Below, piece by piece: positions 19,740 through 57,307 of a DNA stretch of 64,000 bases (position 1 is the stretch's first letter; every line of letters starts with the position of its first letter). The stretch comes from Portulaca oleracea (Eukaryota; Streptophyta; Magnoliopsida; Caryophyllales; Portulacaceae). Below the pieces are notes generated by a model that did not search any database, was not told where the DNA came from, and saw only the letters and a list, made by a program, of their open reading frames with translations. Made by a program: the position numbers and the translations under genes. Location of the stretch: positions 29,043,679 through 29,107,678 of the forward strand of contig CM055893.1 of assembly GCA_029582165.1 (NCBI GenBank), read 5' to 3'.

Positions 19740-21186
19740 CTAGTCTTGCTTCACTTTCTCTACTTCGCCAGTAGTCTCGTGGTCAATCTCCATGTCTATA
19801 GGTCCGTTGAGGGCTTTCTCTTTGTCGTTGGGCTTAAAGAGCCGCCTACTTGGTTTTCGTGTCTCCACTCTCAGACCAAGTCTATCTTTCACCGAATCTT
19901 TTGCACCAAGGTGGTCCTTTACCGATGTACGGGGACCCAATCTTTCCTTTACAGATACTTGCCTTCTTCTCGCCTCTCCAGCACGGCGAGATTCAATAGC
20001 TGCGATTAGCCATCCATGGTAATCAGCATCGGCAATATGGGACACGTGCGCCTTTGGAAGGTCTTTAAGATTTGGTCTTCTTTCCAAGTATTTTAGCCAC
20101 GACTCTATCACTGAGTTTCGAAGCTTCAATTGTTCGGGAGCTTCACACAATAGCTCGGGGATATTTTGCTTGCGACCCATCTGCCGCCTCACTCGCACTG
20201 GAAAATAGAAGGTCATGTGCGTCAAGCCAGCAAGGCACACATAGGCATTGCGGGAATCATGGGTCACATACTCAGAAATGTGCCATCGTTCGATCCACCA
20301 TTTGATGTCGCGAGGTTCCTTCAAGAAAGTAATCCACTCTGTTACCGAGTGGAGGTTAGTGTACTTCCTCTTTCTCTGACAATAGTTCGCCATCGCCAAA
20401 GAAGTTCGGGGTTCTTCGATGAGGCCCAACTGTTCCATTAACCAGATCTGTCCATAAAGTTAGCCAGGGTTAGATTGCATGCCAATTATCCAAACTTAAA
20501 AAAAAAATGCAAAACCCGCGGCGGGTTCTACAAGCAGTAGGGGCAGAAAGTCAGCAGAAGAAGGAATACCTGAAGTAGCAGCGGGCTTCCTCGAAAGTCA
20601 TGTTCTGGATTCGAATCATCGAGGCCCATCATGGTTTCCGCTAGCTTTAAAAGTACGAGATTGTAGCCCCAAGACATGTCTTCAACGATTTGGATCAAGT
20701 TTGCCGGTCCGGTTCTCTTGCCACCATGATAGAAACAAAACTCTCCAAGGAGACATAATGCGAGCGCTCGCACTCGTATCACTAGGCCATATTCCAAAGT
20801 ATCGGGATGTTGAAAATATTCAACAATGGTTTGAAAGTGTACCTTTTCGCCAAATAGTGCATTTCCGATGACCTGAGAAGGAAGACATAAGAGCTCTTTG
20901 TATTGCTTGGGGATGTCAGTTGGCGTTGGAGGTGATGTCGGCCGAGCAAAATGATTTTCCCTAGGATTGAGGACCATTCCTCTGGAAGCGGACATAACTC
21001 TTTCCAAGTAAAACGAAAGACATGCATTTTCAGATCCCAAAAAGTCTCCTCCGCACGAAGAAAGTCGTGATTAGCTCTCACTTGTCGAAGACTGAACAAG
21101 CTCGTCAATTTGTATCTTCCGAGCTCCTTTTTCTCTTCCTTGGACAAGGTACTCATCCAAGTTGCAAGCTTCTTCTCAAATGCCAT
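19740..21186 (-). pseudogene. Antisense gene 1 of B1 (DUF7745-like), two exons
   Basis: Starts at the ATG 21186 (MAFEKKLATWMSTLSKEEKK). Exon 1 (21186-20570) includes ETFWDLKMHVFRFTWKELCP and RVRALALCLLGEFCFYHGGK. A 1-base shift near SSILG moves the frame; B3 reads straight through there. The intron (20569-20448) has GT at CTTCAG|GTATTCC and AG at GGACAG|ATCTGG. Exon 2 (20447-19740) has WITFLKEPRDIKWWIERWHI and a basic tail with three VK(D/E)xLG-type repeats (ERLGPRTSVKDHLGAKDSVK). The pattern recalls the plant DUF7745 family, itself linked to transposons and PMD proteins; that is a by-eye call. Its biochemical role is unknown. Confidence 0.6.
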
Positions 21187-21560
21187 GAGAATTGGGATGT
21201 TTTTCTTTGTGTTTTTGGAGAATATGTGATGAAAACTTTGAAGTGATGATGAGGAGTGTTGATTATATGCATAACATGAGGTATTTATACACCTTCACGT
21301 ATGATAAAAAATAGAGAAAAACAGCCAGCAAGTGATCATGTAGCCGTTGCACTCAAATCCCATGATTTATGCCATCTATAACGGCTAGCAAAAAAAAAAA
21401 AAAGGGGAAAAGAAAATCAAAACCCGCGCGGGTTTTGATTTTCCCAGACCCATGCGCGCGCCTGTCCAAGCCCAGGCCTATGGCCTGCTGAAGAAGAAAA
21501 CCCGCGCGGGTTCTGACGAAATGGGCTGCCTTCAGCAACTCAACCCACCTGTTTTCTGAT
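21187..21560 (-). promoter_or_regulatory. Promoter region of antisense gene 1 in B1
   Basis: On the minus strand a TATAAATA box (21282-21289) lies about 96 bases before the ATG. Further upstream are a perfect 32-bp palindrome (21412-21443), a second copy near 21498-21513, and GGCCCA-type motifs. The box with its following C (TATAAATAC) equals the LTR promoter box. The same arrangement is upstream of gene 1 in B2 and, with a damaged TATA, in B3. Confidence 0.6.
21412..21443. repeat. Perfect 32-bp palindrome
   Basis: The left arm is gaaaatcaaaacccgc and the right arm is its exact reverse complement, with no spacer. It is the longest perfect example of the AAAACCCGC palindrome seen in this window. 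Confidence 0.95.
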
Positions 21561-21620
21561 TGTAACTGGGCCCTGTGAATTAAATTGGCCCGTTCATGTA
21601 TCTTTAATGTTTTGGATCTT

Positions 21621-21916
21621 GTCATTGACCCAATGATGTTCGGTTCTGAAATTTTTGCTCGAGTTTACTCTGACACTTAAGTTTTATATTTTCTTTTCTT
21701 TTTGGGGAAGTGAGATTAATTTGGGATTAATCCCGTCATGTAGAAAGTCATTCAAAAATGCGTTAATACAAGTAAAATCATGCATTCACCGAGTCTTGCA
21801 TATAAAATAAAAATAAAATTCATAAAGAGTCTTGCATCAAAATTTAAAAAAAAGTACAAAATAGTCTTGCATACAAAGGTCTAAATTGCATAGAGTTTTG
21901 CTTGGCATAAGTCTGA
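21621..21916 (-). other. 3' flank of antisense gene 2 in B1 with repeated decamer
   Basis: Between the gene 2 stop and the gene 1 promoter is AT-rich DNA containing agtcttgcat-type decamers (minus ATGCAAGACT) at about 21793, 21831, 21865 and a degenerate one at 21894. The spacing is 30-40 bases. B2 (45540-45680) and B3 (62870-62950) have the same series, so it belongs to the presumed 3' UTR of gene 2. Confidence 0.55.
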
Positions 21917-22551
21917 TCACCATAAAGACCCCGAATCGTCGCTATCTTCAATCAGATTGTTACCAGCATGTGAAGTCTCAGCGTTGGAGGTGCGAGCTAT
22001 GCCAAAGTCGGTATCCCAGGAATAGTAGTCGGGACCAGGAGCCGTCTGCATAGGAGGCGATGGCCCAGACAAGGGAACTTTAAAAGGATGCACGCTCGAT
22101 GGTGACGATATGGAATGTTCCTACGAAGCGGCTAGCCAGGAATGATCAGGAACGTGCCACTCAACAGAAGGGGTAGGCCATACAGGACCGGGGCCTGGCC
22201 AACTAGAAGAAGTAGATCCTCCCAGCCAAGAGTGTTGAGGTGCAGACCACTCTTGCATACCCGTAGGCCATGAAGGACCCGTCCCAAGGGTCGGAACTGG
22301 CTATCCAGCAAAATAAGAGCTAGAGCCAAAAGAGGAGGCGTCGTATGGTGTAGGACGTGAAGTAGCGTCATCCGCTAGGGCCTGACTGCTAGGATACCCT
22401 TCGGATGCACCTGAATCATTGTCCCTCATAACTATCTCCCGACCACGGCGAGCAGAACGCACTGAAGCTGGAGTGCGACGAGAATGAGAAGGCCGCTAGG
22501 AAGCGCTTAACTCCGAAGCATCTTCCACCCAATAGAAATGGGGCTGGGTAT
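21917..22551 (-). pseudogene. Antisense gene 2 of B1, C-terminal part beyond A2
   Basis: This is the last part of exon 6, split from 29442-29889 by A2. It aligns with B2 46310-45688 and B3. It encodes a Ser/Gly/Pro-rich low-complexity tail with a conserved D-Y-Y-S-W-D motif and ends in DDSGSLW before TGA (21917-21919). Frame interruptions prevent one continuous reading. No domain is recognisable in the tail. Confidence 0.65.
22547..22551 (+). repeat. Left target-site duplication of A2
   Basis: ggtat directly before the LTR TG. It is matched exactly after the 3' LTR at 29437-29441. Confidence 0.95.
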
Positions 22552-24007
22552 TGTTTAGACCCAATTTTGTGTCTAAATACCGCCTAAATCCTTAGGCTTT
22601 TGACTTGTTTCGTGGTCTAATTTTATATCTTTTAATATGTTTTTGGTTATTTTGTAGATTCTAGTGTTTTTACTCAAAACATGGTAAAAAGGGCCATTTT
22701 GTACCTACTGTGGAAATCCTGAGATTTCCCGGGTCATGGTCGAGGCAAAGGCGAAGGAAGCGGGAAGGCCGAACATATCAAGAGGATCAAAAGTTAGACT
22801 TTGCTGAATGAATGTGGCCGAGCTTGACCGTACCCACGGTCCTGAAGACCGCACCTACGGTGGGTGCAAGACATGAGCAGTAGGTGAAGTGCCCGAGTGT
22901 GACCGTACCCACGGTCTTGGGAGACCGTGCCTACGACGGTACCCAAGGTCATGACTCATCGTGCCTACGGTGTTGCGAAGAAGAGAGAAATCTGCAGAAG
23001 TTACGCAGAACCGTAGCTATGGTCCCCTGCAGTTTCGCATTTTTTCTGCTTAGTGAAGTGACGCGTTTTGGGTAAATAACTTGGCTTGTATATATTGCTA
23101 TTAGGTCTTTTAGATGAGGGGGATATCTTAGGTTATCGTTTAGCTACATAGACCTTACATTCAGCTTGTATTAGAGAGAGATTAGTGAGAGATTAATCTA
23201 GGGTTTTGGAGATTTGTGTTTATTATTAGATTTGGGGATTCAAACAATTAAGAGATTGTCGGATCATATTTTTATTGCTTTTCCTTGTTCATCTACAGCA
23301 TTTTGATAAGTATTCTCTTCCCTTAACTCTTTCATTAATTACTTTGCTAATTACTTTTCTTGTTCTTTAATTTCTTTGCTTGCTATTTTGATTATTTGGC
23401 TTGTTCTTGATTGTTGGATGTTAGAAATCATGCTTAGGGTTGGTTTGGATGTGAATGGGTAAGTAGGCATGGGTTAGCGATTTTAGTGAGTAATTAGTTG
23501 GGAAATCATTTTTCCCACTCCAATCCTTCCCTCAAGTGGGATGTATTTGGGTCCGACAGTCCCCCGACACATCCAACACTTGAGTTGGAAGGTTGGAATT
23601 TGGATAGTTAGTACTCTACTCACGAAAGTGAATAGAGGCTAACCAGGGAATTCCGTTTCTTCAACCCTCTGGGTCCGTAGTGGACTTTGGGGAAGTTAAT
23701 CTGGACTATCCTTGAAAGAGGAAGCCCGGTTGGTATTCTCTAACGGAATTGCCACTTGATTTCCTTCCTTGTTGCTTTCTTGTTGCGAAACCTATCTCCT
23801 TGTTCCCGTTTGCATCCCGAAAAACCTCAGAAGCCCATTTTCCATTCCTTGACCGACCTTAGTTTTGTTTCTCGATTTGTGACCCCTTCAAATAGATATC
23901 CTTACCTTAGCAATCTCATCCCGACCATTGACCTAGATTCTATGACCAAGGCCCCTAGCTCCCTGAGAGAGAACGACAAAACGGAGGTCTTACAAAACCA
24001 CGTTACA
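22552..24007 (+). repeat. 5' LTR of A2
   Basis: 1,456 bp, tgtttagacccaa to cacgttaca. A TATA-like tatatatt is at 23089-23096. U3 carries several gaccgtacccacggtc-type inverted motifs (22829-23025). Relative to its own 3' LTR it lacks about 67 bp at 23451, about 42 bp at about 22941, and about 21 bp at about 23017; the last two break within palindrome units. Confidence 0.94.
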
Positions 24008-24012
24008 CAAAA

Positions 24013-24030
24013 TGGCGCCATTGCCGGGGA
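24013..24030 (+). other. Primer-binding site of A2 (tRNA-Asp)
   Basis: TGGCGCCATTGCCGGGGA, five bases after the LTR. It differs by one base from the tRNA-Asp complement TGGCGCCGTTGCCGGGG. Confidence 0.88.
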
Positions 24031-24167
24031 GCAAGCGCACCTAGCTTTAGGTTCCTTTGGTTAAGAGTAGTTTAGATTGCTTTCATGCTTGAAATTAGTT
24101 TGTTCCAATTCCAATGAATTTGATGCTTCTTCATTTCTTGTAAGAGGTTTTCAAGTTCTAATGGCTG

Positions 24168-24800
24168 ATGGTCACTACCCTCCTATCATATTCCGTTCCA
24201 TCATTGGGTACGGGAGGCAACCCTATCATCCTACCGCCACTACCATCCACCGCAACATTTAAGTTTAAACCATGCCTACTGGATGCTTTTGAGAGAAACC
24301 AATTCTATGGAGATGGATTCGAGGGTCCTTTTGATCATATTAGAAGATTTGAAGATCGGATTGGTTTTGTTCATCTGCCAGAGGTATCTTCGGAGTTTTT
24401 AAAACTGAAGCTTTTTCCTCTCACCTTGGGAGGAAAAGCTAAGATATGGCTTAACATTTGTCCACCCGACATTTATACTACTTGGGACGCATTGAGCCGG
24501 GATTTTCTTAACCATTACTTTTCGGCCGATGAGACGCACAGGCTTCGACAAGCCATCTTGAACTTCAAGCAAGAGTCGGGAGAAACTCTTTTCGATTCAT
24601 GGGTAAGGTTCAAACGTCTTCAAAGGCGATGTCCACATCACAATCTTCTGGATTTGTTATTGTTACATCAGTCTTACCATGGGCTTCAAGACGATCTTAA
24701 AGAGTCGATTGACATTGCATCGGGAGGAATGTTCCTTATGAAGACCGAGCATCAAGTAAATGTCTTCTTTCATGAATTATTTCAACATTCACCTTCTTAG
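24168..24800 (+). CDS. A2 gag core (Athila-type)
   Basis: A 210-codon frame homologous to the first half of A1 gag: LPPLPSTATFKFKPCLLDAF, NQFYGDGFEGPFDHIRRFED, LKLFPLTLGGKAKIWLN, GETLFDSWVRFKRLQRRCP and ASGGMFLMKTEHQVNVF. An ATG six bases upstream (24162, frame 24077-24262) is in a different frame, as in A1, so the true start is uncertain. The frame ends at TAG 24798; in A1 the same region continues into the Gln-rich tail. The product would be a capsid-like protein. Confidence 0.8.
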   Translation: MVTTLLSYSVPSLGTGGNPIILPPLPSTATFKFKPCLLDAFERNQFYGDGFEGPFDHIRRFEDRIGFVHLPEVSSEFLKLKLFPLTLGGKAKIWLNICPPDIYTTWDALSRDFLNHYFSADETHRLRQAILNFKQESGETLFDSWVRFKRLQRRCPHHNLLDLLLLHQSYHGLQDDLKESIDIASGGMFLMKTEHQVNVFFHELFQHSPS

Positions 24801-24836
24801 GGAAGCCGCCGGAGTTCAGGAAGTGGAGGCTATTGC

Positions 24837-25670
24837 TTGGAGAATGAACCTACTATCAAACTCCTTATGCGCGTCGTCCAAGAGATACAACAGAAGATGG
24901 TATCTAATGGAGCAACCAACCAATTGGGAATCATGCAAGAGACCCAACCCTCCACCCAAAACATCCAATATTTCTCACCCAATTACCAAAATCAAGAAGT
25001 TTGGCAACCCATTTATCACCAACCTACCCCTCAACTTCAAGAATCCCTACCAACTCAAGAGTCCAACATAGAGAAGTTGGTGAAGCAAATTGTTGAAAAC
25101 CAAGAGAATGATACGGCTCGCCTCGAGAACATTGAAAATCAATGGGCCCAAATGGCTCGGCAAGACCATATTCCTCAAACCGTCCCCATCCAACCTCAAC
25201 CTCAACCTACCCCAATTGTACCGGTGAATCTTATTACCTTCCGGAGTGAAGGGGAAGCCATAATACCAAATTTTGTGGAGGAGGGATGTTTGAGAGAAAA
25301 AGAGAAAGAGAATGAGTTGGAGATGAATGAAGCAAGGGAGGTGGTGTTTGTAGAGGCCAAAATTGAGAATGAAGAAAAGTTGAGTGAGGGAGAATTCAAT
25401 GAGGAAATAGATTGGTGCTTAATAGAGCCTTATACTTTTGAGCTTTCATGTGAGTGTCCTTTGGAAGAGATCCTTCTTGAGCCTATCCAAGTGGAGCCCG
25501 ATGGTAGTGAGGCTGTTTTCCTCACTAATCTTATTGATGGGGCATATATTAGAGAGGTGGAGGATGTTCCCTTGGAGGAACCTTTATTAGAACGTATGGA
25601 CATCTCTAAAGTTTTCTCTTTCCCAAATGGAGTTTTAGTACTTCCCGATCACATTGAACTATGTTATTGA
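24837..25670 (+). CDS. A2 gag tail with acidic extension, no protease
   Basis: A 277-codon frame following gag. The first part matches the A1 gag tail (TIKLLMRVVQEIQQKMVSNG, then a Gln/Pro-rich stretch, IENQWAQMARQD). Where A1 goes on through a linker to protease, A2 has a short LITFRSEGEAIIPNF and then a Glu-rich segment (REKEKENELEMNEAREV) and an acidic C terminus of unknown function. The protease is therefore absent, lost or never present in this subfamily. No start context favours independent translation; it was probably joined to gag before decay. Confidence 0.65.
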   Translation: MENEPTIKLLMRVVQEIQQKMVSNGATNQLGIMQETQPSTQNIQYFSPNYQNQEVWQPIYHQPTPQLQESLPTQESNIEKLVKQIVENQENDTARLENIENQWAQMARQDHIPQTVPIQPQPQPTPIVPVNLITFRSEGEAIIPNFVEEGCLREKEKENELEMNEAREVVFVEAKIENEEKLSEGEFNEEIDWCLIEPYTFELSCECPLEEILLEPIQVEPDGSEAVFLTNLIDGAYIREVEDVPLEEPLLERMDISKVFSFPNGVLVLPDHIELCY

Positions 25671-26016
25671 AGAAGAATTCAAGGTAAGGGTTGAGAAGAA
25701 AGAAGAATTTTTGAAAGAAGATGACCATCATCAACCCGAGCTTGTTCCCGAGGCTCCAAAACTCCGGGAACCAACTAAGGTGGAGTTTAAATTGCCTCCT
25801 CATCTATTTCACCCGATTCGATCACCGGAGGAGCAACTTCCTTGGTTCACTATGGTGGTTGGGAGATGTTGGAAGAAGAGAAGAAGACGAAGGTGGAGGA
25901 CGCATAAGAAGTCGTTGCCTCTCTTTTCCCCGAGGTCAACTACAAACTGGTTAGATCATTTTGACCTTGATGTTTGCAAAATGGGGAAATGCTGGAAAGG
26001 GAGGAAGAGGAAATGA
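25654..26016 (+). pseudogene. A2 trailing frame, Lys/Arg-rich end
   Basis: A 120-codon frame overlaps the end of the acidic frame in another phase: VRVEKKEEFLKEDDHHQPEL, then PPHLFHPIRSPEEQLPW and a basic KKRRRRRWRTHKK stretch. It looks like a frameshifted continuation of the same lineage-specific region. I cannot assign a function. Confidence 0.4.
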
Positions 26017-27835
26017 TGGAAGAGATGGAAGATGTTCCTGTCTTGCACACCCCGACTTTCAAGGATCAAATGGGTATTAGGTCAAGCTAGGGACCTAAAA
26101 CAAGCACTATATGGGAGTTAACCCATGCTTTGTTTTTGTTAATTTTCTTTCCTTTCGTTATTAGTTTCTTTTTCTTATTTCTAATCTAGCATGCCAAGGC
26201 TCAAGTATATAGGACGTTTAAATTTGCTTATCCTAACCCTATGCTTGGTACTTTTGGATCGTGGATTGAGAGAGTTTCTATTTGAAGATCTCGAGATAAC
26301 CTCTTTCCACTCTCTTTTAGTCTATTATATCTTTGATCCATGTTGCATGCTTGATTTTTCTTTTGGTGGCGAGCCCCTAAGTATTTGCTTGATGGGTTTA
26401 TCTTGTTGTTGGAGTCGTGTGGGGTCGGGCCACCACCACTTGCTTGCTAGTTGTTTTGTTTGCTAGCTTTTTGTAGGTTCTCTACCCTTTCTTGTGACAT
26501 CCTTCCCATAATGAGGACATTGTGGCGTTTTAAGTGTGGGGGGGGGGGGGGAGTTATTTTTGTTTCAAGGGTAGATCACCTAGCATTTTATTTTCTTTTT
26601 GCTCTTTTTAGGCTAAAATCTGAAAATTTTTTGTGTGAAAAAGGAGAAAAAAGGGAGTGAAAGCCGTCAAAGTTTTCTTTCCGTTTTCGTTTTCGCTTCG
26701 TTTTTCTTTGTTTCTTGGATCTTGTTGTCGAAATTGAGAAGTCGTTCTTAATCTTCTATAAAAGAAACTGGTTTGAGCCTTTTTTCGACCTTGTCTTGGG
26801 TACAAGTCATGACTTACCTTCTTAGATTTCCTTCATTGAGTGTCTAGTAAGACCCCCGATTCCTTTCACATTCTGGTTGAAAGCGGGAGACTCTAGGGGT
26901 TCGTGTCCGAGCTTGTTCTTTTTCCCGTTGAATAAAAGCAAAAGAAAAGTTCAAAAAAAAAAATCTACAATAACCGGATTAAGTGGGGCGTGTCGCTGAA
27001 TGACATTAACCACCTTACACTTAGCCAACCTACACGGGCCTAGTATTAGTGGTACGGCGCTATTATCCCTTAAGCACCTCCCATATCGAATTCTCGATGG
27101 AGGTGTGTATGGAAAAAACTGTGTTGGGAGGGTAAACCCCATATTTGGGCCGTCCAATACCCGAAAGTAAGGCTAATACCGACTTTTAAAAAAAGAAAAA
27201 AAAAGAGAGAAAAGAAAAAGCAATTTCGTTGGTAAAACCAACCAAAAAGAAAAGAAAGTTTAAGCGTTGATAAAGTGTGGGGCCTATCCTTACATCACCT
27301 ACGGCCCTCACCAAGCCAAGGGCGACCAAATGCGCGGAAGGGCAACTCATGCCTTGTTTGTTTCGTTGTTTTTGAGTTCGGACATGAGTCTTTGGAGTCT
27401 TTTGGATTCGGTTAGAACCCACTTGCACAATTGCACAGGGGGTTTTGCTTGGCATGAGGTGTAGGGGGGTCGAAAATCTTTAAGACTGATTTTAGCTTGG
27501 GATAGGTGTTTGTAAGATGCTCATAACGGTTCCTTTTGGAGGCTTAATAACGTTTTCTTAATTAAGGTTGCAAGATCCTTTGAATCGAAGCTTTTGTTTC
27601 TCTTTCCTTTTGTTTTCTTCAGTTTTGTTTTCACTTTCCCTCTCTCCTTTTTCTTTGGCTTTTGTGGGTACAGCCGCTACAAACCCTCACGAGTCCATCT
27701 CATCTACCCGGCCTGCCGGAAGGGTTCAAAGGGCTTGGCACATACGCTAAATGCACTCATTTCTCTCCCACGACAGAGGAGTTTGTGTTAGTCTAGGTAG
27801 TTTTTGTCTTGTTTTGCTCGGGACGAGCAAAAGTT
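26017..27835 (+). other. Non-coding 3' region of A2
   Basis: No supported frame. Homologous to 1421-3434 of A1 in reverse. It contains a hairpin (ccataatg-agga-cattgtgg, about 26507-26526) followed by gttttaagtgt and a run of 14 G (26538-26551), the internal polypurine-like tract. Confidence 0.65.
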
Positions 27836-27849
27836 TAAGTGTGTGGGGG
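27836..27849 (+). other. Polypurine tract of A2
   Basis: taagtgtgtggggg directly before the 3' LTR tgtttagaccc. Same motif as in A1. Confidence 0.85.
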
Positions 27850-29436
27850 TGTTTAGACCCAATTTTGTGTCTAAATACCACCTAAATCCTAAGGCTTTTG
27901 ACTTGTTTCGTGGTCTAATTTTATATCTTTTAATAAGTTTTTGGTTATTTTGTAGATTCTAGTGTTTTTACTCAAACCATGGTAAAAAGGGCCATTTTGT
28001 ACCTACTTAGGGAATCCCGAGATTTCCTGGGTCATGGTCGAGGCAAAGGCGAAGGAAGCGGGAAGGCCGGACATATCAAGAGGATCAAAAGTTAGACTTT
28101 GCTGAATCAATGTGGCCAAGCTTCACCGTAGCCACGGTCCTGAAGACCGCACCTACGGTAGGTGCAAGACATGAGCAGCAGGTGAAGTGCTCGAGTGAGA
28201 CTGTACCCACGGTCTTGGGAGACCGTGCCTATGACGGTGCGAAGGAGAGAAGTTTCACCTGACCTAAATCGCCAGACCGTACCCACGGTCATGACTCACC
28301 ATGCCTACGGTGCTGCGAAGAAGAGTGAAATCTGCAGAAGTTACGCAGGACCGTAGCTACGGTCCCATAGACTATACCTATGGTCCCCTGTAGTTTCGCA
28401 TTTTTTCTGCTTAGTGAAGTGACGAGTTTTGGGTAACTAACTTAGCTTGTATATATTGTTATTAGGTCTTTTAGCTGAGGGGGATATCTTAGGTTATCTT
28501 TTAGCTACTTAGACCTTACATTCAACTTATATTAGACAGAGATTAGTGAGAGATTAATCTAGGGTTTCGGAGATTTGTGTTTGTTATTGAAGATTTGGGG
28601 ATTCAAACAATTGAGAGATTGTTGGATCATGTTTTTATTGCTTTTCCTTGTTCATCTACAACATTTTGATAAGTATTTTCTTCCCTTAACTCTTTCATTA
28701 ATTACTTTGCTAATTACTTTGCTTCTTTATTAATTTCTTTGCTTGCTATTTTGATTATTTTACTTGTTCTTGATTGTTGGATGTTAGAAATCATGCTTAG
28801 GGTTGGTTCGGATGTTGTTAGCTTAGTTAGTATCATTATTAGTTGCTAGAAACCCTATGGGTTAGGGGGTAATTAAGGGTGTGAATGGGTAATTAGGCAT
28901 GGGTTAGCGATTTCAATGAGTAATTAGTTGGGAAATCACTTTTCCCACTCCAATCCTTCCCTCAAGTGGGACGTATTTGGGTCCGACAGTCCCCGGCCAC
29001 ATCCAACACTTGAGTTGGAAGGTTGGAATTGGGATAGTTAGTACTCTACTCACGAAAGTGAATAGAGGCTAACTAGGGAATTCCGTTTCTTCAACCCTCC
29101 GGGTCCGTAGTGGACTTTGGGAAGTTAATCCGGACTATCCTTGAAAGAGGAAGCCCGGTGGGTATTTTCTAACGGAATTGCCATTTGATTTCCTTCCTTG
29201 TTGCTTTCTTGTTATGAAACCTATCTCCTTGTTCCCGTTTGCATCCCGAAAAACCTCCAAAGCCCATTTTCCATTCCTTTACCGACCTTAGTTTTGTTTC
29301 TCGATTTGTGACCCCTTCAAACAGATATCCTTACCTTAGCAATCTCATCCCGACCATTGACCTAGATTCTATGACCAAGGCCCCTAGCTTCCTGAGAGAG
29401 AACAACAAAACTGAGGTCTTACAAAACCACGTTACA
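27850..29436 (+). repeat. 3' LTR of A2
   Basis: 1,587 bp, longer than the 5' LTR by 131 bp because it keeps three segments lost there. Ends cacgttaca followed by the target duplication. Confidence 0.95.
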
Positions 29437-29441
29437 GGTAT
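29437..29441 (+). repeat. Right target-site duplication of A2
   Basis: ggtat, identical to 22547-22551. After it the antisense gene resumes with caccaccatacccaacac, also found in B2 at about 46323. Confidence 0.95.
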
Positions 29442-32218
29442 CACCACCATACCCAACACTGTGATGTGACCCCCTGACCAAGTTGTTCCTCCAAGGACAT
29501 CTGAGCCATGTCCTTCTTCATAGGACGACAATCTCTGCTACCAGATCTGCTACGGTGAGACCGAGTTGAATGGTGACCCTCGATCATAATGCCTTTACCG
29601 TGACCCTCTGGCACTACTGCTAGGGGAGGACAAGAGGACCCACCAACTTTTTCCTGAGATCGACTCTAGGAAGAATACTCCCCTACCGAAGAACGTGGGG
29701 GCTCGGTGCGAGGGACTCCTGCAGTAGAACGTCGAGGTGGATCCCGAGGAACAGACTCTGCATCGGCCTCCATATCAGCCTTTCCGATGGTATTCCCACG
29801 ATATCTGCCTGAGCCGGTGAATACCCGGTCAATGTGCTTCAACATAGTACTCCACTCCTTGGTCTTTGTCGGAAGAAAGCCCATCATGGCTGAAAGATAA
29901 TGAGACCAAGGTTATACATGCATAAGCGGCATATGGGATAAAAGGAAGCACCATGAAATGAAGAATTACCAGTTTCCGATCGAATTCTCGGAGTGCAGAG
30001 CATTGACTGCTGTCTCTACATCCAAGAAGCCGCCAATCCTTCTCCTCGCTGGTGGGACCTCCACCTCAGCGGCCCTAGCATAGGGCCCCAACTGTAAACT
30101 TTACGGTTAGGAATCACCCAAAACATGACAGAGATAAAGGAAGAAGATACATACCACCCGGGGAGCTAAACGGCTCAGATAGCGTTGGAACTCATCATTG
30201 AACTACTCTTGTGGACGTCATGTACAAAGTTGTCGAAGTCATGACCATGAATCAGATCTCCCAGAACACCCGGGTCAACACGCCATGGCTCGAACATATG
30301 CTCCAGAGGATCCCGGAGAATAAGGTTGGGATATCCCCCCAGGATTTGCCTCGAAGCTCTCTCTCCCAGGTACCATACGAAGCCTGAGGGTCCCTCCACC
30401 AGGATGCGGATGCGAGTATCATGCTCCACAAGTTACAAATGGGTGGGCAATCCACCCAAGTTGAACTTAACTCATGGGCACCAATTCACTTGATCTTGTG
30501 AAAGAAAGAGAGTCATGTCAAGAATAGAGACAAAATAAAATAAAGACGTCATGCATAAAGAAATACCGGAGGTAAGGTCATCTAGCACACGACGAATGCG
30601 GTCGAGACTGCCTGGCTGGAATTCCTTCCCACTAATGGCCTCAGTAGTCTAGCGTTCAGCAGCTGGGACCGTCTTATCTTTCTTTGAGTGAATGCTCAAA
30701 GGCAGAATGTACTCGTATGCCCACGACTGCATGAATATAAAGTCAACGAAAAAGCAAAAGAGTAGCACTACTACAAAGAGAAGAGTTTCGGGTACATACC
30801 TCGAGCACCTTCCACAGAGAAAGGCCATACTGGTAGCGAGTATGAGACTCATGAAGGTAAATTGGATCATCATCTAGTGAAAGTCTGACACCGCGGTGAA
30901 GCCAGAGAATGAAGTTCGCATAAGCCGCTTTGCCCCGATTCAAGTTCCGGACATTATTCAGGTCCAGAAGATTCTGAAACCATGTCAAAGTGATGTTGTC
31001 CCCACGATTGGCGAAAAGGGTGGCAGAAATAATGTACGCCAGAAAGATAAAGCGACGTTGATCCCCAGGCAAATTTTGGAAGTTGGCATCACGAATGGCC
31101 GCTTCAAAAAGCGCGTAAGAGAGATTGGAAAGGCCTTGCCCTTGGCCTAAGTGCGTTGACACTGGACCCAGTAGATCCAAGACCATCGGGGGAATCTCGG
31201 CGTCGAAGACTACGTCGCGCCCACCCCAAGGAAGACCAGTAATCATAATAAAGTACGTGGGAGTAACCGTCATCTCACCCACAGGCAAATGAAAGGAATT
31301 GGTAGTGTCCCAAAACCTTTCAGCTATACCACGGCCAATGACACGGAATGTTTGACCTTTCCATGCCACCAAGCATTTCCAGAACGACATGAAACCCGCC
31401 TCGGTCAATGTGTTGTTGACAAAGTCCCCAGGAATTGATTCAGATACTTTAAGGGGATCCTTTAAGACACCAGAAGTCTTCAAATTATCCTCCTAAAAAC
31501 AAATAGAAGGGCTAATTAAAGTCGGGGGCTCATCTAACATTGGACCTAGGCCTAATCTTTCGGGCCCTAGCTGGACCCAGCACCAACACTGGGCTCACAA
31601 CCATGGCCTACAAGATAAATAAAATTAAAAACAAAATAAAAAAAAACACACGGCCCCCGAATGTCCCGGCCCAACAGAATTAAAACCTGCACGGGTTTTA
31701 TTTCTTTGATGGGCCACACATTTAGGCCCATTGTTTTTTCAGGTAGCCAATGGACCAGAAAAATCGCGCGAGTTTTGATTGTGCTAGTGGATCGCTTCCT
31801 TGTCGGCTGGGCCGAGCATGCATGGGCCCAGTAACATAAAACCCACACAGGCTTTCCCTAAACTATGGGCCAGGTTTGGTTATTTCAGGTCCATTCTACG
31901 AGTTATCGGTTGTAATGCGAGCCATCATAGAGTCATGCATATGCATCACATTAAAGCATGCATAAAATAATGAAAATCGACAAGACATGAAAAATAAATT
32001 CGTGCTTGTTCATTTTTACATTAAACTAAGCAAAAAAAGAAGTTTCGGAAGTTACCTTGCCCGTCGGAACGGTAGAACCAAGCATTGTTCCAAGATTGAA
32101 TGGTGAGATCCGAAGGGTCAGCATTCGCACCCGGGATAAAGTTACGCCGTGAAGACATTTCGTGGGGCCATGCTGCCGCATGTGGAATAGAGGGATTCCT
32201 ATGACCTCGGGGATACAG
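29442..32218 (-). pseudogene. Antisense gene 2 of B1: plant mobile domain (PMD) gene, exons 1-6 (start)
   Basis: Six exons can be placed on the minus strand by GT..AG sites shared with B2: 32218-32056, 31492-30799, 30726-30567, 30494-30155, 30091-29970, and 29889 onward into A2. Exon 2 encodes the aminotransferase-like plant mobile domain: FRVIGRGIAERFWDTTNSFH, VGEMTVTPTYFIMITGLPWG, then a helical region with RRFIFLAYIISATLFANRGD. PMD proteins occur as host genes (MAIN/MAIL family, chromatin silencing) and inside plant transposons. Later exons are Arg/Ser/Pro-rich (RDPPRRSTAGVPRTEPP). The expected ATG is CTG here, exon 3 has a TAG, and A2 splits exon 6, so this copy is dead. Confidence 0.8.
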
Positions 32219-32660
32219 TTTCCAAAGAACTAAAATTATCTTCAAAGAAGCGAATTTTCCTAGAGAGAGAGGAAGGAGCTAGAGAGATGAGGAGGAGTTG
32301 AAGATGTGAATGAATGAAGTAAATGAGACATTGTATTTATAGAAATGTTGAGTGAAGATGAGCCGCTCGTTTCTTGGACCCGCCTCGAGATGTCAAATTC
32401 GTTTCATTGGCCGAAAATCCAAAGGTCATCACTTTGCCACCCAAAGAGGAGATCAAGTCAGGTGGCACATTCTCGTCCATACAAAGATGGGTCCCACTTT
32501 GATTCCCTTCACGAGGAGAAGAAAAAAAGAAAAAAGACAAAGGGCCAAAACCCACGCGGGTTTTGGGTGATTTACAGGCCCATTCTCGCGGCCCAGCGCC
32601 TTTCAACGGCCCAGTAGTTGTTATAAAGCCCGCACGGGTTTTACGCTAGCTAATGCCAAA
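32219..32660 (-). promoter_or_regulatory. Promoter region of antisense gene 2 in B1
   Basis: The minus strand has TATAAATA (32334-32341) about 116 bases before the lost start. Upstream lie two AAAACCC palindromes (32547-32564, 32625-32642) interleaved with GGCCCA motifs (e.g. 32578, 32589, 32608). TATA position and the palindrome-rich upstream match gene 1 and the LTR. Confidence 0.6.
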
Positions 32661-32890
32661 TTCAGCGGATCAAGGCCCCACAACCCATTCAAAACAAGCC
32701 ATACGACACAAAACCGATGGCCCTAAGACTGCGGCCCAAGATTTTTCAAAGCTCAGGTAAAAAATCTGAACCCTCCTCACATGTCGATAAAACTAATACT
32801 TGATTTTCTTGTGATTTTCAGGTCGCCGCTAAAAGGGACCATCCACCATCCGGTTGCCACATAAAAGAGCACCATCATCAGTGACAGTCG
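32661..32890. other. Spacer before tandem array in B1
   Basis: No frame is supported. The end (32844-32890) is a diverged partial unit of the tandem array (ccggttgccacataaaagag). Confidence 0.5.
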
Positions 32891-33290
32891 TCCAACGGAT
32901 GCCACCTAAAGGCCTCCAACGATGTCATCAGCGAAAGCCGTCCAACGGATGCCACCTAAAGGCCTCCAACGATGTCATCAGCAACAGTCGTCCAACGGAT
33001 GCCACTTAAAGGTCTTTGACGATGTTAGCAAATAGCAGTCGTCCAACGAATGCCACCTAAAGTTTCCGACGATATCATGAACAACAGTTGTCCCACGGAT
33101 GCCGCTTAAAGGCCTCTGACGACATCCTCTGCATCGGTCGTCCAACGGATGCCACCCAAAGGTTTCCGACGATATCATCAATAGTAGTCATTCAACGGAT
33201 GCCACTTAAAGGTCTCCAATGACATCTTCAGCATCAATCGTCCAACGGTTGCCACCTAAAGTTTACCGACGACATCATCATCAACAACAT
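32891..33290 (+). repeat. 50-bp tandem repeat array, 8 units
   Basis: Units start with tccaacggatgccac at 32891, 32941, 32991, 33042, 33091, 33141, 33191 and 33241, a period of 49-51 bp. The first two are nearly identical; later ones diverge. Partial units flank both sides (32844-32890, 33291-33330). The array sits just before the polypurine tract. Tandem arrays in the 3' untranslated region are an established Tat-lineage trait and a known seed of satellite DNA. Confidence 0.93.
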
Positions 33291-33390
33291 CATTTGGTCG
33301 CCATATAAAAGAGCACCACCAGCATCAAGATAGACATCAAGCATACAACATTTCAGTCTACTTTGACCTTCGTCCTATTCAGACTCGATC

Positions 33391-33405
33391 AAAGTGGGAG
33401 CTCTC
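33391..33405 (+). other. Polypurine tract of B1
   Basis: aaagtgggagctctc directly precedes the 3' LTR. It is purine-rich only in its first ten bases. Confidence 0.6.
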
Positions 33406-33748
33406 TGTAGACACCGGGATTCGCACCGATAAAATCCTGACTTATCAAAAGTTTAATAAAACATTTGGGTCGGATACCGGGATGGATCATTGGGCCAATA
33501 AGCGGAGAAAGCATAAGATGGCCTAGTACCTGGGTTAAAATCCGAACGGGTTTTAATCAAGGTAGGCGACCCAGAAACAAAACCAGCCCAAGGGCGCCCC
33601 GGCCCAGCTGCTTCAAAACCTGTGCGGGTTTTAAACCGCCTGAAACGCGTCATTTTGCCATCCACGTCAGTGATCTGTGTGCCTGGATATTATAAAACCC
33701 GCGTGGGTTTTCTGTTTGAATTCGGCACCAAAAATCTTGATCACCCCC
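33406..33748 (+). repeat. 3' LTR of B1, cut by B2
   Basis: The first 343 bases align with 10112 onward of the 5' LTR and break in the run of C after cttgatca, exactly where B2's LTR starts (tgtagacatcgg). The remainder should lie beyond B2's missing 3' end and is not in the window. Confidence 0.92.
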
Positions 33749-34110
33749 TGTAGACATCGGGATTTGCATCGATATAATCCCGGCTTATCAATAAATCATT
33801 TGGGCCATGTAACAAGCAAAGCAGACAAGACAAACTCAAACCGGCCCACTACTAAAGACAAAACCCGCACGGGTTTTAATCAAAAGAGACGGCCCAAAAC
33901 AGGACCAGCCCAAGACACGCCCTAGCCCAGTCATTTCAAAACGCACACGGATTTTCTACCACCTAAACCCGTCGTTTGTCGTCCACGTCAGCAATTCGTG
34001 TGCCTGGACATTAGAAAACCCGCGCGGGTTTTCTCTTCCAAAAGATGGCGCCATTATCTTGCTCATTCCCTTGATTTTAGCCCACATGCCTTGACCCTCT
34101 GCTTTGACTT

Positions 34111-34935: not shown

Positions 34936-34972
34936 GAAATTGATAAAAACCCGCGCGGGTTTTATCAATTTC
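34936..34972. repeat. 37-bp near-perfect palindrome in B2 LTR
   Basis: Left arm gaaattgataaaaacccgc, right arm gcgggttttatcaatttc; one extra A on the left is the only mismatch. Confidence 0.93.
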
Positions 34973-35310
34973 AACCCATCTTCTCTGGCCCATGAAGGTG
35001 CACAGCCCAGTCCATGGACTGTTGACACCCGTGCGGGTTTTAACGGTCCATGGTGGCCTGTTTGCCTTATGTTGGGCCTGGGTTGGAAATTTGGTCAATA
35101 TTAAAGTATTTTTTAAAGTATTTTAGTTTAATTTTGAGTGTTTAAATAAATAAAAACGGACTTATAAATAAATGAAGTTTCATCACCCCGAAAACGAATT
35201 TCGAAAATAAAAATATCCTTTTTTAAGGATTAAGCAACCTTAGTCGGCTCCTTATCACCTAAGTAGGGCATCATGGAAAAAGGGTCACCTTTCTTCCGGG
35301 GTCCTACAGA

Positions 35311-39217: not shown

Positions 39218-40651
39218 ATGCCACTAGGGAAGAATCCGAAGAACAAAATCCCGCCCGTGTTCAAGACCTTCAAGCAACAGGGAAGGTTTGGCTTAGGCTA
39301 CAAATTAGCTGAGAAGGAGGCCAGGCTCGCAAAAATGGCTATTGTTGAACAAAAGAGGATGGAAAATCCTCTCACTTTATTTCAGATGAAGCCCTATCCA
39401 CTTACTCTTAATGAGCAGTTTGTTAAGGAAGGTGATGACTTCCCCTATTACGGGTTCCCTGAACCCTTTTACCTGAAGAACAAAGGATTTCAAGTCGCTG
39501 GACTGGAAGTCTTTGATGATTGCTCCATTAATATGGCTACTGTCTTTGTTCCCGCTCGGGACAAACAACCTCCATTAGAATGGACTCATCTTGCTGGGAG
39601 CAACATTTTCGGCATGCTGTTTGGACAAGAAGCTGTCCAAGAGAAGTCTGAAGCTGATGCTGTTGTTGCTGCTTTGTCCAACCCGAGTTTTGACCCAAGT
39701 CTCATGGTTACTGAAGACGAAGAAGTTAAAGTGGTCCCGTGGGTCAATGATGAGGAGAATTACTTTGCTTTATCTGTAGGAGACTCTGTTCCTAATGACA
39801 TAGAGTCAGGTCTTAAGGGTCTAGAGTCAAGTGAGTCTGGTCTCGAGTCTGCTGGCGATGTATTTCTTTCTGCATTCAATAAGATGAACCTTTCTGCTTA
39901 CTCTGATTCTTCTTTCCCCTCTTCCCTGAACTGCTGCGCCAATAATAATCTGGAATTTAATGAACCCTTAAAAGATTTTTCTAATGAACATGAGCATAAA
40001 ATGGCGGTGTTGGAAGACACCATCTCCATAAACGTGGGTACAGAAGAGCAACCTCGAGAATTGAAGTTAGGTAGCTCACTTACAGCAGAAGAATGGGTAG
40101 CATTCGCGGAGCTTCTCAAGGAGTTTGTCGACGTTTTCGCATGGTCCTATGAAGACATGCCTGGGATTGACAGAGAAATAGCGGAGCACACTATACCTTT
40201 GCTTCCTAATGCAAAGCCAGTTCGGCAAAAGGCTAGGAGGATCAAACCAGAATGGGCAAAGAAGATTGAGGAAGAAGTAATCAAGCAACTTAATGCTAAG
40301 TTCATCAAAACAGTCCAATATCCTGAGTGGATTGCTAACATTGTTCCAGTGCCCAAGAAAGACGGGAAGGTGCGTATGTATGTTGACTTTCGAGATCTCA
40401 ATAAGGCTTGTCCCAAGGATAGTTTCCCATTACCTCACATCGATGTATTATTGGATAACACTTGTCGACATGAGCTTCTATCCTTTATGGACGGATATGC
40501 TGGTTATAACCAAATCAAAATGGCAGAAGAGGACATGGAGAAAACATCATTCACTATACCTTGGGGAACATACTGTTATGTGGTTATGCCGGTCACAAGA
40601 ATGCCGGAGCAACATATCAAAGAACTGCCAATACCCTACTTCACGACATGA
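39218..40651 (+). CDS. B2 linker, spacer and N-terminal reverse transcriptase (longest open frame)
   Basis: A 477-codon frame, the longest in the window. It starts within the G-patch-like segment (PLGKNPKNKIPP, GRFGLGYKL), runs through the acidic spacer and RT fingers (PEWIANIVPVPKKDGKVRMY, VDFRDLNKACPKDSFPLPHI, FMDGYAGYNQIKMAEED). It then goes out of frame at about 40588, where the MPFGLKN motif is destroyed by a small deletion (reads MPVTRMPEQH). Upstream, 39065-39217 holds the start of the linker in other phases with TAG and TGA stops. The start codon of the track is arbitrary; originally this was an internal part of a Gag-Pol polyprotein. Confidence 0.82.
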   Translation: MPLGKNPKNKIPPVFKTFKQQGRFGLGYKLAEKEARLAKMAIVEQKRMENPLTLFQMKPYPLTLNEQFVKEGDDFPYYGFPEPFYLKNKGFQVAGLEVFDDCSINMATVFVPARDKQPPLEWTHLAGSNIFGMLFGQEAVQEKSEADAVVAALSNPSFDPSLMVTEDEEVKVVPWVNDEENYFALSVGDSVPNDIESGLKGLESSESGLESAGDVFLSAFNKMNLSAYSDSSFPSSLNCCANNNLEFNEPLKDFSNEHEHKMAVLEDTISINVGTEEQPRELKLGSSLTAEEWVAFAELLKEFVDVFAWSYEDMPGIDREIAEHTIPLLPNAKPVRQKARRIKPEWAKKIEEEVIKQLNAKFIKTVQYPEWIANIVPVPKKDGKVRMYVDFRDLNKACPKDSFPLPHIDVLLDNTCRHELLSFMDGYAGYNQIKMAEEDMEKTSFTIPWGTYCYVVMPVTRMPEQHIKELPIPYFTT

Positions 40652-40884
40652 TGCACATAGAGTTAGAGGTTTATGTGGATGACATGATTGTTAAGTCCAA
40701 AACAAGGAAGGAACACATTCCTAACCTTCGAAAATTCTTTCTGCGACTTCACAAATACAAGATGCGGCTTAATCCAGCAAAGTGCACCATCGGTGTTACC
40801 TCTGGGAAATTGTTAGGTTATGTGGTTAGCCAACGAGGCATTGAAGTTGATCCTTCAAAGATAAAGGCTATCCAAGAGTTGTAA
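40561..40884 (+). pseudogene. B2 reverse transcriptase, palm and thumb
   Basis: Continues RT in another frame with NAGATYQRTANTLLHDMMHI and the catalytic VYVDDMIVKSK intact, then RLNPAKCTIGVTSGKLLGYV. It ends at TAA 40882 (QEL then stop), where B3 has CAG. Confidence 0.85.
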
Positions 40885-40962
40885 CCTCCCAGGACAGAAA
40901 AAGAGATAAGAGGTTTCTTAGGGCAGGTTCAATACATCAGTAGGTTCATTTCAAAGCTCACC

Positions 40963-42063
40963 ATGACTTGTGAACCTTTATTCAAGAAGCTAAAGAAAGG
41001 AAGCAAAATAGAATGGGACGATCAATGTCAAGAGGCCTTTGACAAAATCAAGGAGTATTTGCAACATCCTCCGGTCCTCATGCCGCCAGTACCAGATGAG
41101 CCTCTGCTCCTTTACCTTACTGTGGCTAGCTCTGAAATGGGGGCTATGCTAGCTCAAAAGGCTAAAGGACAGGAGAGCGCCATCTACTACTTGAGCAAGA
41201 AGTTCTTGGACTATGAAAGTCGATATGCAGACATAGAGAAAATTGCTCTCCCATTAGTATGGGCTACCAAGAAGTTAAGACATTACATGCTCTTACATAC
41301 AGTTTATGTCATAGCTGAGAATAATCCCATTAAATTCATCATGGAGCAGCCTACCATCAATAACCGCATCGCTCGATGGGTGGTCATGCTTTCAGAGTTC
41401 AACCTTCAGTACATGCCTTAGAAATCCATCAAAGGACGGGTTGTTTCAGACTTCCTAGCTGCTTCACCATCACAGGAACCTCCAAGCACTCACTTGGAAC
41501 TCCCAGATGAGGATGTATTCTTCACTGATGAAATAACATGGGAAATGTACTTCAACGGAGCTTCAAACCAAATGGGTTGCGGAGTAGGAGTGCTATTGAT
41601 CTCTCTAGAAGGGGCACATGTCCCTGTGTCTGTGAAGTTAGACTTTGATGCTACTAACAACGCCGCTGAATATGAAGCATGCATCAAGGGCTTACAAGCT
41701 GCATTGACTATGGGTATACGTTACATAAAAGTCTTCGGAGACTCTAGCCTCATAATTAATCAGGCTAAGAATACATGGAAGGTCCGGAATGAATGTCTTA
41801 TGGCATACCAACAAAAGCTCTTAGGAATTGCTGACCAATTTGAGCAAATCAGCTTCCAGTACCTCTCAAGGGATCACAATGAGTTAGCTGACGCCCTAGC
41901 CAAGTTGTCATCGATGATATCGATACCATCAGGCACGCTCCAATTACCAGTAGTAGTAGAGCGACAGTCTGAACCTGCATATGTGTACAATATGGAGGCA
42001 CAAGAGGAAGATATTGAGGAATGGTTCCATGACATTTATAATTTTCTTCGGAAAGGAGAATAG
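40963..42063 (+). pseudogene. B2 degenerate RNase H plus archaeal-type RNase H
   Basis: Frame 40963-41421 is the first RNase H (DEPLLLYLTVASSEMGAMLA; VIAENNPIKFI, Asp missing) and stops at TAG 41419 (CAG in B3). Frame 41494-42063 is the second RNase H: MYFNGASNQMGCGVGVLL with the first catalytic Asp changed to Asn, EYEACIKGLQAA, VFGDSSLIINQ and RDHNELADALAKLSS with the last Asp kept. It runs on into the integrase N terminus and stops at TAG 42061 where B1 and B3 have TAT. Confidence 0.85.
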
Positions 42064-49070: not shown

Positions 49071-49247
49071 CTTCCAAAAAGCTCAAATTATCTTCAAGGA
49101 ACAAATTTTCTAGACAGAGAAAGAGAAGCTAGAGAGATGGTGAAGAGTTGAAGGTGTGAGTCAAAGAGGTGAATGAAACTTGGTATTTATAGAAATGTTG
49201 AGTGAATCTGAACCGCTCGTTTCTAGGACCCGCCTCGAGATGCCAAA
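49071..49247 (-). promoter_or_regulatory. Promoter region of antisense gene 2 in B2, cut by D
   Basis: TATAAATA on the minus strand at 49184-49191, about 115 bases before the ATG as in B1. The palindrome part upstream has been separated by D. Confidence 0.55.
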
Positions 49248-57302: not shown

Positions 57303-57307
57303 CAAAA

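Follow-up and report, generated by a model that had tools for sequence, protein, structure and literature searches.

How can a retrotransposon keep genes that contain introns, and what might such genes do for it? Both questions are raised by a 64,000-nucleotide stretch of the Portulaca oleracea genome (assembly GCA_029582165.1, contig CM055893.1, positions 29,043,679–29,107,678; hereafter the window), in which three related Ty3/gypsy elements, designated B1, B2, and B3, were found. An original prediction, made from the letters of this stretch, described two spliced minus-strand genes, one DUF7745-like and one PMD-type, in a Tat-lineage element between pol and the 3′ long terminal repeat (LTR). 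Here, we present evidence that both genes (gene 1, adjacent to pol, and gene 2) belong to the PMD superfamily, that their proteins appear to have been constrained while the family replicated, that they have one intron site in common with a low-copy PMD gene of the same genome, and that regularly spaced 18-bp palindromes stand ahead of three transcription units. Local counts refer to the window and genome-wide counts to the 1.13 Gb searched; the genome searches scored the best 147–150 of 5475, 3959, and 19943 first-look candidates, and their counts are lower bounds.

The two antisense genes

Profile searches carry the identification of the two genes. With curated Pfam cut-offs of 34.9 bits for PMD (PF10536) and 26 bits for DUF7745 (PF24924), the joined-exon protein of gene 2 (taken from locus L036, two stops being written as X and the sequence lacking the end of exon 6) matched PMD at 67.5 bits (E 1.5e-18), and that of gene 1 (from L056) matched both PMD (39.1 bits, E 6.9e-10) and DUF7745 (30.9 bits). 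Both predicted profiles were thus recovered above their cut-offs, but the gene that had been called DUF7745-like is a PMD protein too; judged by these matches, gene 1 and gene 2 are both PMD-superfamily genes. The only further Pfam match of either was a weak one to DUF1985 (E up to 10). The PMD match spans the whole domain only after exon joining: exon 2 of B2 gene 2 alone scored 52.1 bits, the open reading frame (ORF) of B1 gene 1 exon 2 matched PMD positions 265–345 at E 5.8e-4, under the curated cut-off, and neither the separate and partly broken pieces of B2 gene 1 nor the B2 gene 2 piece at 45691–46098 matched a Pfam family. As the joined (L036, L056) and unjoined (B2) sequences are different copies, this comparison supports the joins without being a strict test of them. 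For gene 1, a search of protein collections returned one relative, from Silene latifolia, which aligns with 51% of the query at 33% identity and whose reading frame runs LLQVWLSERLGLI through the gene 1 intron site; for gene 2, it returned none. A single long gene in place of two was considered and rejected, because gene 1 is equipped with a TATA box and an ATG of its own, and because both products align to the same PMD region.

The structure of gene 2 was derived from an alignment of 31 copies, comprising B1, B2, and 29 further loci (L012–L040), the best matches after B2 among 147 scored. Six exons and five introns are predicted on the minus strand. The commonest lengths of exons 1–5 (162, 693, 159, 342, and 123 nt, in 28, 17, 19, 15, and 24 of the 31 copies, respectively) are all multiples of three, so that every intron would be phase 0. 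With alignment gaps counted as misses, introns 1–5 begin with GT in 25, 30, 28, 28, and 24 copies and end with AG in 29, 26, 22, 30, and 26. On the antisense strand, introns 2–5 of B2 gene 2 contain 44–47% T and 14–19% A, and exons 1–5 contain 23–28% T; plant introns are typically biased towards U, and the T-richness of these introns therefore points to antisense transcription. Indels number 17.1 per kilobase per copy in introns and 1.47 in exons (28 copies against L036; L012 and L026, the downstream parts of which are unalignable, were excluded). The copies in the window are damaged: in B2 gene 2, exons 1 and 3 each contain a stop, and exon 2 is one base short relative to L036. A frameshift of common origin in exon 2, which is 692 nt long in 10 of 31 copies, was rejected: the missing bases lie at several different positions, and this scatter indicates that gene 2 copies decayed independently.

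Gene 1 was aligned in 13 copies, namely B1–B3 and ten loci (L054–L063) chosen from 150 matches, five with a stop in exon 2 and five without. Two exons and one intron are predicted, also on the minus strand; exon 1 measures 618 nt in six copies, and the intron has a GT donor in ten and an AG acceptor in nine. The GT..AG introns of the original prediction thus recur at matching positions in most copies of both genes. The C-terminus of gene 1 (B2 43562–43750) is a basic, repeated stretch (K-E/D-R-L-G-P/A-R ...), rich in K and R, which could be a nuclear-localisation or nucleic-acid-binding region. The features of the two genes, with the palindromes and TATAAATA TATA-like boxes described below, are as follows.

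48909..49070, minus: exon 1 of B2 gene 2, 162 nt, one stop (alignment)
48378..48908, minus: intron 1 of B2 gene 2, 531 nt, palindrome pair at 48577 and 48653 (alignment)
47686..48377, minus: exon 2 of B2 gene 2, PMD domain core (PMD E 7.5e-14)
47613..47685, minus: intron 2 of B2 gene 2, at a codon boundary common to gene 1 and the low-copy PMD gene (alignment)
47454..47612, minus: exon 3 of B2 gene 2, 159 nt, one stop (alignment)
47042..47383, minus: exon 4 of B2 gene 2, 342 nt (alignment)
46852..46974, minus: exon 5 of B2 gene 2, 123 nt (alignment)
45688..46776, minus: exon 6 of B2 gene 2, decayed, end set by the ORF end (ORF and alignment)
29438..32218, minus: B1 gene 2 (PMD), exons 1–5 and the start of exon 6, TATAAATA at 32341 (exon limits from alignment)
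63150..64000, minus: B3 gene 2, exon 6 only, leaving the window (homology to B2 46319–46751)
44341..44958, minus: exon 1 of B2 gene 1, 618 nt, two stops, TATAAATA at 45050 (alignment)
44204..44340, minus: intron of B2 gene 1, donor GT, acceptor AA, one palindrome at 44271 (alignment)
43559..44203, minus: exon 2 of B2 gene 1 (alignment)
19740..21186, minus: B1 gene 1 (PMD/DUF7745 type), two exons, frameshifted, TATAAATA at 21289 (alignment)
61080..62261, minus: decayed B3 gene 1 in two exons, with one palindrome in the intron (61606) and another upstream (62566); the lower limit is that of the aligned stretch

Both genes had been predicted in all three elements. This stands for B1 and B2, which carry the pair between pol and the 3′ side, and in part for B3, where the window closes after gene 1 and a single exon of gene 2, the last (exon 6). 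The arrangement recurs elsewhere in the genome. Among the best matches, the two genes lie on the same strand in all 34 pairs found within 15 kb of each other, and their exon starts are 3649–4350 nt apart in 28 of these pairs; uniform placement would give 0.6 gene 2–gene 1 pairs. Gene 1 and integrase, similarly paired within 15 kb, lie on opposite strands in 34 of 35 cases, with starts 1256–1301 nt apart in those 34, so that the end of gene 1 faces pol as had been predicted. The order of integrase, gene 1, and gene 2 is rigid in copies paired genome-wide.

Intron history and protein-level constraint

The junction of gene 2 intron 2 with exon 3 had 798 genome matches at up to three mismatches and its reversed control had 0, whereas the intron-less junction of exons 2 and 3, the only such junction probed, had 0. 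The persistence of introns that had been foreseen is thereby borne out for intron 2, which was kept through amplification. Such antisense introns were probably kept because the replicating RNA is the sense strand, in which they would read CT..AC and could not be spliced.

A further indication of how the introns arose comes from a PMD gene pair outside the family (L052, L053), the first exon of which scores ~215 bits against PMD, far above the element genes. This is probably a cellular low-copy PMD gene, so called because only two places of that kind occur among the matches listed. Its introns, placed by hand, follow ..SLTLLQ and ..LKPTD and are GT..AG and phase 0. We aligned this gene by MAFFT with five copies of gene 1, four of gene 2 (L034 was left out because of its length), two single-exon PMD genes, one MULE PMD, and the Silene protein. 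Directly after column 416 of the alignment, all three genes have an intron in the same phase: the first intron of L052/L053, intron 2 of gene 2 (between ..LWKVLE and SWAYEY), and the intron of gene 1 (between ..SPLLLQ and IWLMEH). The second L052/L053 intron and intron 3 of gene 2 nearly coincide, being separated by two columns (477 and 475, respectively). The simplest reading of this alignment is that gene 1, gene 2, and the L052/L053 gene descend from one intron-bearing ancestor and that none has since passed through a spliced mRNA. The ancestry of Gypsy PMDs relative to cellular PMD genes has been termed 'fully open' (PMC5418596, in part); a common intron site makes the question testable, and it would mean that the step between the two groups, in either direction, bypassed spliced mRNA.

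The genome holds other PMD genes as well. Single-exon genes form clusters (L001–L005, L008–L010) on C19 at 19.49–19.62 Mb and on C24 at 3.78–3.91 Mb, which resemble homoeologous tandem arrays, duplicates of each other. Eleven loci (L041–L051) are MULE/FAR1-type transposons with a PMD gene, the core of which lies intron-free in one open frame; in the five loci examined by Pfam, it is on the strand opposite the transposase. These loci were rejected as processed copies of the antisense gene: MULE or FAR1 domains were present in five of five tested, and none of the 11 matched the element proteins.

Selection was estimated from 406 pairs of 29 gene 2 copies (L012 and L026 dropped) and 78 pairs of 13 gene 1 copies. 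For gene 2, the pairwise medians were 0.089 for dN, 0.531 for dS, 0.226 for intron divergence, and 0.18 for dN/dS, with the caution that loci were picked by similarity to exon 2, so that dN there may be lowered, although exons 1 and 3–5 lay outside the query. The ratio was 0.46 at dS <0.15 and 0.15 at dS >0.5; for gene 1, the median was 0.12, and the value at dS <0.15 was 0.39. On internal branches, changes per column at codon positions 1–3 were 0.266, 0.164, and 0.909 in gene 2 (introns 0.661) and 0.196, 0.087, and 0.725 in gene 1 (introns 0.642); the terminal branches of gene 2 were less uneven (1.176, 0.945, and 1.497; introns 1.452). As a yardstick among the window copies, dN/dS was 0.08–0.19 for reverse transcriptase (RT), RNase H, second RNase H, and integrase, 0.08–0.18 for gene 1, and 0.12 for gene 2 exon 2. 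By these measures, the gene 1 and gene 2 proteins were constrained while the family replicated, about as strongly as pol.

This pattern bears on three alternative accounts. According to one, the element passively carries a captured host PMD gene, or the exon–intron structure was misread from decayed sequence; many copies are indeed broken, further PMD genes exist in the genome, and some splice sites are lost. Set against these are the median dN/dS of 0.12–0.18 with its signal on internal branches, the rigid spacing across independent copies, and the full-domain PMD match obtained only with joined exons (in different copies, and so no strict test), and we give this account almost no credence. 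Another holds that the antisense transcripts work as RNA, forming double-stranded RNA with the genomic RNA to feed small interfering RNAs (siRNAs), the open frames being incidental. Such a role is discussed in PMC7264820 (in part), and PMD genes of tea give 21-nt phased siRNAs (PMC10673657, in part), but protein-level constraint in the spliced frames, seen in the codon-position pattern, makes it very improbable. In the third, the proteins would serve a replication step (RNA export, particle assembly, nuclear import, or target choice) in the manner of retroviral accessory proteins, and the palindromes would be unrelated. Constraint equal to that on pol and the K/R-rich C-terminus of gene 1 are in keeping with this idea, and the authors of PMC7264820 (in part) suggest accessory-like roles for antisense ORFs. 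It leaves the palindromes before both antisense promoters and in the introns without explanation, and we consider it improbable.

Palindrome modules and a possible regulatory circuit

The 18-bp palindrome AAAACCCGCGCGGGTTTT has 26 sites in the window at up to three mismatches, where 0.01 would be expected, and all lie within B1, B2, or B3. Most sites are paired or in triplets ~78 bp apart, mostly 74–82 bp. Spacings are 80 and 79, 78 and 79, and 78 and 77 in the LTR triplets, 78 and 78 in the leaders, 78 and 74 upstream of gene 1, 78 upstream of gene 2, and 77 and 79 (B1) and 76 (B2) in gene 2 intron 1; some members of these modules were counted at four mismatches. The gene 1 introns contain single sites. 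The modules and the LTRs that hold some of them are listed here, the palindromes themselves being unstranded.

10111..10455, plus: B1 5′ LTR, 92.2% identical to 33405–33748, with LTR end sequences; 3′-side boundary uncertain
10242..10418: three palindromes in the B1 5′ LTR, starts 10242, 10322, and 10401, the third overlapping TATAAA at 10398
11264..11359: palindrome pair in the B1 leader, spacing 78 (motif search)
21419..21514: palindrome pair upstream of the B1 gene 1 TATA, spacing 78 (motif search)
31682..31855: palindromes in B1 gene 2 intron 1, starts 31682, 31759, and 31838, the last with four mismatches (motif search)
32547..32642: palindrome pair upstream of the B1 gene 2 TATA, spacing 78 (motif search)
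33405..33748, plus: B1 3′ LTR with three palindromes (33537, 33615, 33694), adjoining the B2 5′ end at 33749
33860..34032: three palindromes in the B2 5′ LTR, at 33860, 33938 (four mismatches), and 34015 (motif search)
34946..35041: palindrome pair in the B2 leader, spacing 78 (motif search)
45179..45270: palindrome pair upstream of the B2 gene 1 TATA, spacing 74 (motif search)
49184..49191, minus: TATAAATA TATA-like box, 121 nt upstream of the B2 gene 2 ATG, at the same place (119–128 nt) in 24 of 31 copies

The third palindrome overlaps a TATAAA box in both B1 LTRs; no such box was found in the B2 LTR. Ahead of both antisense genes, TATAAATA stands 92–128 nt from the ATG; for gene 1 it is present in B1 and B2 and, by eye, in L054 and L059, B3 differs, and the remaining gene 1 loci are too short upstream. 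Across 30 gene 2 loci, at least two palindromes were found upstream of the ATG in 24 (the B1 sequence used spanned only 202 bp there) and at least two in intron 1 in 25, and, within the stretches examined, none of the 30 has a site in exon 1 or anywhere past the start of exon 2. The two intron 1 palindromes exceed 93% and 77%, respectively, of 18-base windows in conservation. Exact palindromes number 2544 genome-wide, with 0 matches to the reversed control; over the 64–125 bp probed, 123 exact pairs fall at 64–94 bp and none at 95–125 bp, and 46 of the 50 exact pairs listed are spaced 75–80 bp. None of 23 other PMD loci has the palindrome. The spacers differ save for a short CCA, often GGCCCA, near the middle, and the alignment may accentuate the CCA.

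We tentatively favour the reading, while rating it a little below an even chance, that the antisense PMD genes encode the element's own transcriptional regulators, probably acting against silencing through the paired palindromes. Two PMD-superfamily genes would be expressed antisense between pol and the 3′ LTR, with their predicted introns spliced; the two products would pair, in the manner of Arabidopsis MAIN and MAIL1; these proteins, rather than a host factor, would bind the palindromes; and the outcome would be anti-silencing of, or feedback on, the element's promoters. A self-regulating circuit of this kind fits because the proteins show pol-like constraint, each gene is preceded by its own TATA-like box, and a single DNA module stands before all three transcription units. 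In a fuller version, the element would be a retrotransposon counterpart of VANC, in which paired PMD proteins bind palindromes spaced ~78 bp to keep the LTR and antisense promoters open, PMD genes having been exchanged between host and element as unspliced DNA and the antisense orientation having shielded their introns; we consider this fuller version unlikely. We know of no PMD in VANC. A spacing of ~78 bp nearly matches the length of DNA in a single turn around a nucleosome.

The main rival explanation of the palindromes is a host transcription factor that would bind them and fire the three promoters jointly, with the PMD proteins acting elsewhere, for example against the host MAIN/MAIL1/PP7L silencing complex. 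The sites precede the TATA boxes of LTR, gene 1, and gene 2 alike, so that one factor would suffice, and MAIN and MAIL1, which are PMD proteins, function in silencing (PMC5418596, PMC7156037, both in part). Against this, zones of 12 kb on either side of the listed family matches make up 1.2% of one contig yet take in 20 of the 50 sites listed there, and the 23 other PMD loci lack the palindrome; together, these counts make it look concentrated in the element family. On balance, we regard a host factor as somewhat unlikely.

Several observations weigh against assigning this regulatory role to the element's own proteins. No recognised DNA-binding domain appears in the Pfam results for gene 1 or gene 2 (the gene 2 query lacking the end of exon 6), which also favours a host factor, as do the other 30 of those 50 sites, which are not near a family match among the matches listed; a search of solved structures found no relatives of gene 1. 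The case for splicing is uneven. The acceptor AG of gene 2 intron 3 is missing in 9 of 31 copies, that of gene 1 reads AA in 4 of 13 (B2, L054, L056, L060), some gene 2 splice dinucleotides (introns 1–3, and 5 in part) are no better conserved than the surrounding intron, and B2 gene 2 intron 1 is weakly T-rich (32% T, 27% A). An extra palindrome at 34114 lies 99 bp past the 34015 site of the B2 LTR triplet, and the conserved blocks upstream of gene 2 include the TATA block, though others rank above it. Finally, many family copies are broken, and the dN/dS values near 1 in young copies that the original prediction named as contrary evidence are partly seen: whereas deep pairs and internal branches indicate strong constraint, the eight closest gene 2 pairs give 0.57–0.85 (0.54–1.84 for exon 2 alone). 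The eight closest gene 1 pairs give 0.23–0.85. Higher ratios in the closest pairs are expected, because dead copies decay after insertion.

Host elements and comparison with known systems

Outside the two genes, the elements show the following features.

39218..42939, plus: B2 pol, with RT, RNase H, second RNase H (RVT_3), and integrase, in several open pieces (Pfam RVT_1, RT_RNaseH_2/RT_RNaseH, RVT_3, rve)
32874..33286, unstranded: 50-bp tandem array ahead of the B1 3′ LTR, 8.3 copies (repeat analysis)
22552..29436, unstranded: nested LTR element, outside the cassette, splitting exon 6 of B1 gene 2; LTR-like repeats 90.0–95.5% identical in three pieces

B2 starts at 33749, and its homology to B1 stops at 49248; no recognisable 3′ LTR of B2 was found within the window. 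The B1 3′ LTR and the B2 5′ LTR-like sequence abut LTR to LTR at 33748/33749 with no gap. The flanks of the nested element correspond to adjacent B2 positions (46314/46319). LTR-like repeats of another family lie at 1–1407, 6239–7624, 22552–24007, 27850–29436, and 55744–57309, in both orientations, and include insertions in B1 gene 2 exon 6 and in B3.

Parts of this arrangement are familiar. PMD in Gypsy elements is already known (PMC6317226, PMC5418596, PMC9289625): Gypsy-only PMD-A clades have been described (PMC5418596, in part), and PMD occurs in Gypsy consensuses of ten plant species, or 40 under a looser filter (PMC9289625). The antisense genes of Retand and Grande are likewise already known (PMC11963269, PMC7264820), and counter-silencing by a PMD protein encoded by a transposable element (TE) has been proposed (PMC8616336, in part). 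What is new here is the intron site common to gene 1, gene 2, and the low-copy PMD gene, together with the paired 18-bp palindrome module. Within the open-access literature searched, we found no antisense multi-exon PMD pair, no intron shared with cellular PMD genes, and no such module; of 17 papers containing one of the palindrome strings, those listed have no match to the 16-mer and appear unrelated by title. The case shows how a retrotransposon can carry multi-exon genes over the long term, and the palindrome module offers a concrete DNA target to try for proteins of unknown function.

Among retrotransposons, the closest likeness is to the Tat lineage, in which pol carries a second (archaeal-type) RNase H, between RNase H and integrase in Ogre and Retand (PMC6317226, in part). 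The B2 pol order of RVT_1, RT_RNaseH, RVT_3, and rve, with dual RNase H between RT and integrase, places the element in this lineage, as had been predicted. Like the Ogre clade, it combines a Ty3/gypsy Tat-type pol with an extra PMD coding region; a PMD ORF is present in 57% of Ogre elements and is thus frequent rather than strictly defining (PMC6317226, in part; Neumann 2019). It differs in that its PMD-type genes number two, lie antisense, and contain predicted introns; the available passages on Ogre PMD ORFs give no exon structure. Ogre LTRs are cited as 1.9–6.5 kb (PMC6431247); the aligned part of the B1 LTRs, ~345 bp, is much shorter, but the 3′ copy stops where B2 begins, so that the full length is uncertain.

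Retand elements carry antisense TRP28 ORFs between pol and the 3′ LTR in 97% of clusters, with tandem arrays in the same region in about half of elements (PMC11963269, in part; Vicient 2025). The 50-bp array of B1 occupies this very region, but TRP28 identity (PF04195) was considered for gene 1 and gene 2 and rejected, as the Pfam search returned no such match; conversely, a word search of the available text of PMC11963269 gives neither PMD nor intron. In maize Grande, gene23 lies in antisense orientation in the pol–3′ LTR interval, is driven by a promoter of its own, and encodes a nuclear protein (PMC7264820, in part). Its position is thus alike, whereas PMD goes unmentioned, and the available text contains neither 'mobile domain' nor 'intron'. 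The same paper calls for examining antisense and spliced transcripts (PMC7264820, in part).

The PMD gene of the MULE/FAR1 transposons (L041–L051) also belongs to a mobile element, but to a DNA transposon, and its PMD core is intron-free in one frame; transposase-type domains were found in five of the eleven loci, all five tested. MAIN and MAIL1 are two different, interacting Arabidopsis PMD proteins that act together in TE silencing (PMC5418596, PMC7156037, PMC8616336, all in part). They are host genes that silence, whereas gene 1 and gene 2 belong to the element.

For the DNA module, the nearest parallel is VANDAL21, a DNA transposon in which VANC21 lifts silencing and binds short motifs that are arrayed along the same element, in its introns, upstream regions, and non-coding regions (PMC5735166, in part). 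Its motif is nine bases long in one orientation, in contrast to an 18-bp palindrome at ~78 bp, and binding has been demonstrated for VANC21, the likeness here lying in motif arrangement alone. Both systems nonetheless combine extra protein genes with short motifs clustered in the element's own non-coding regions, introns, and promoters (PMC5735166, PMC10398659, both in part), and whether extra ORFs shape methylation as VANC does has been raised as a question for other LTR lineages (PMC12844716, in part).

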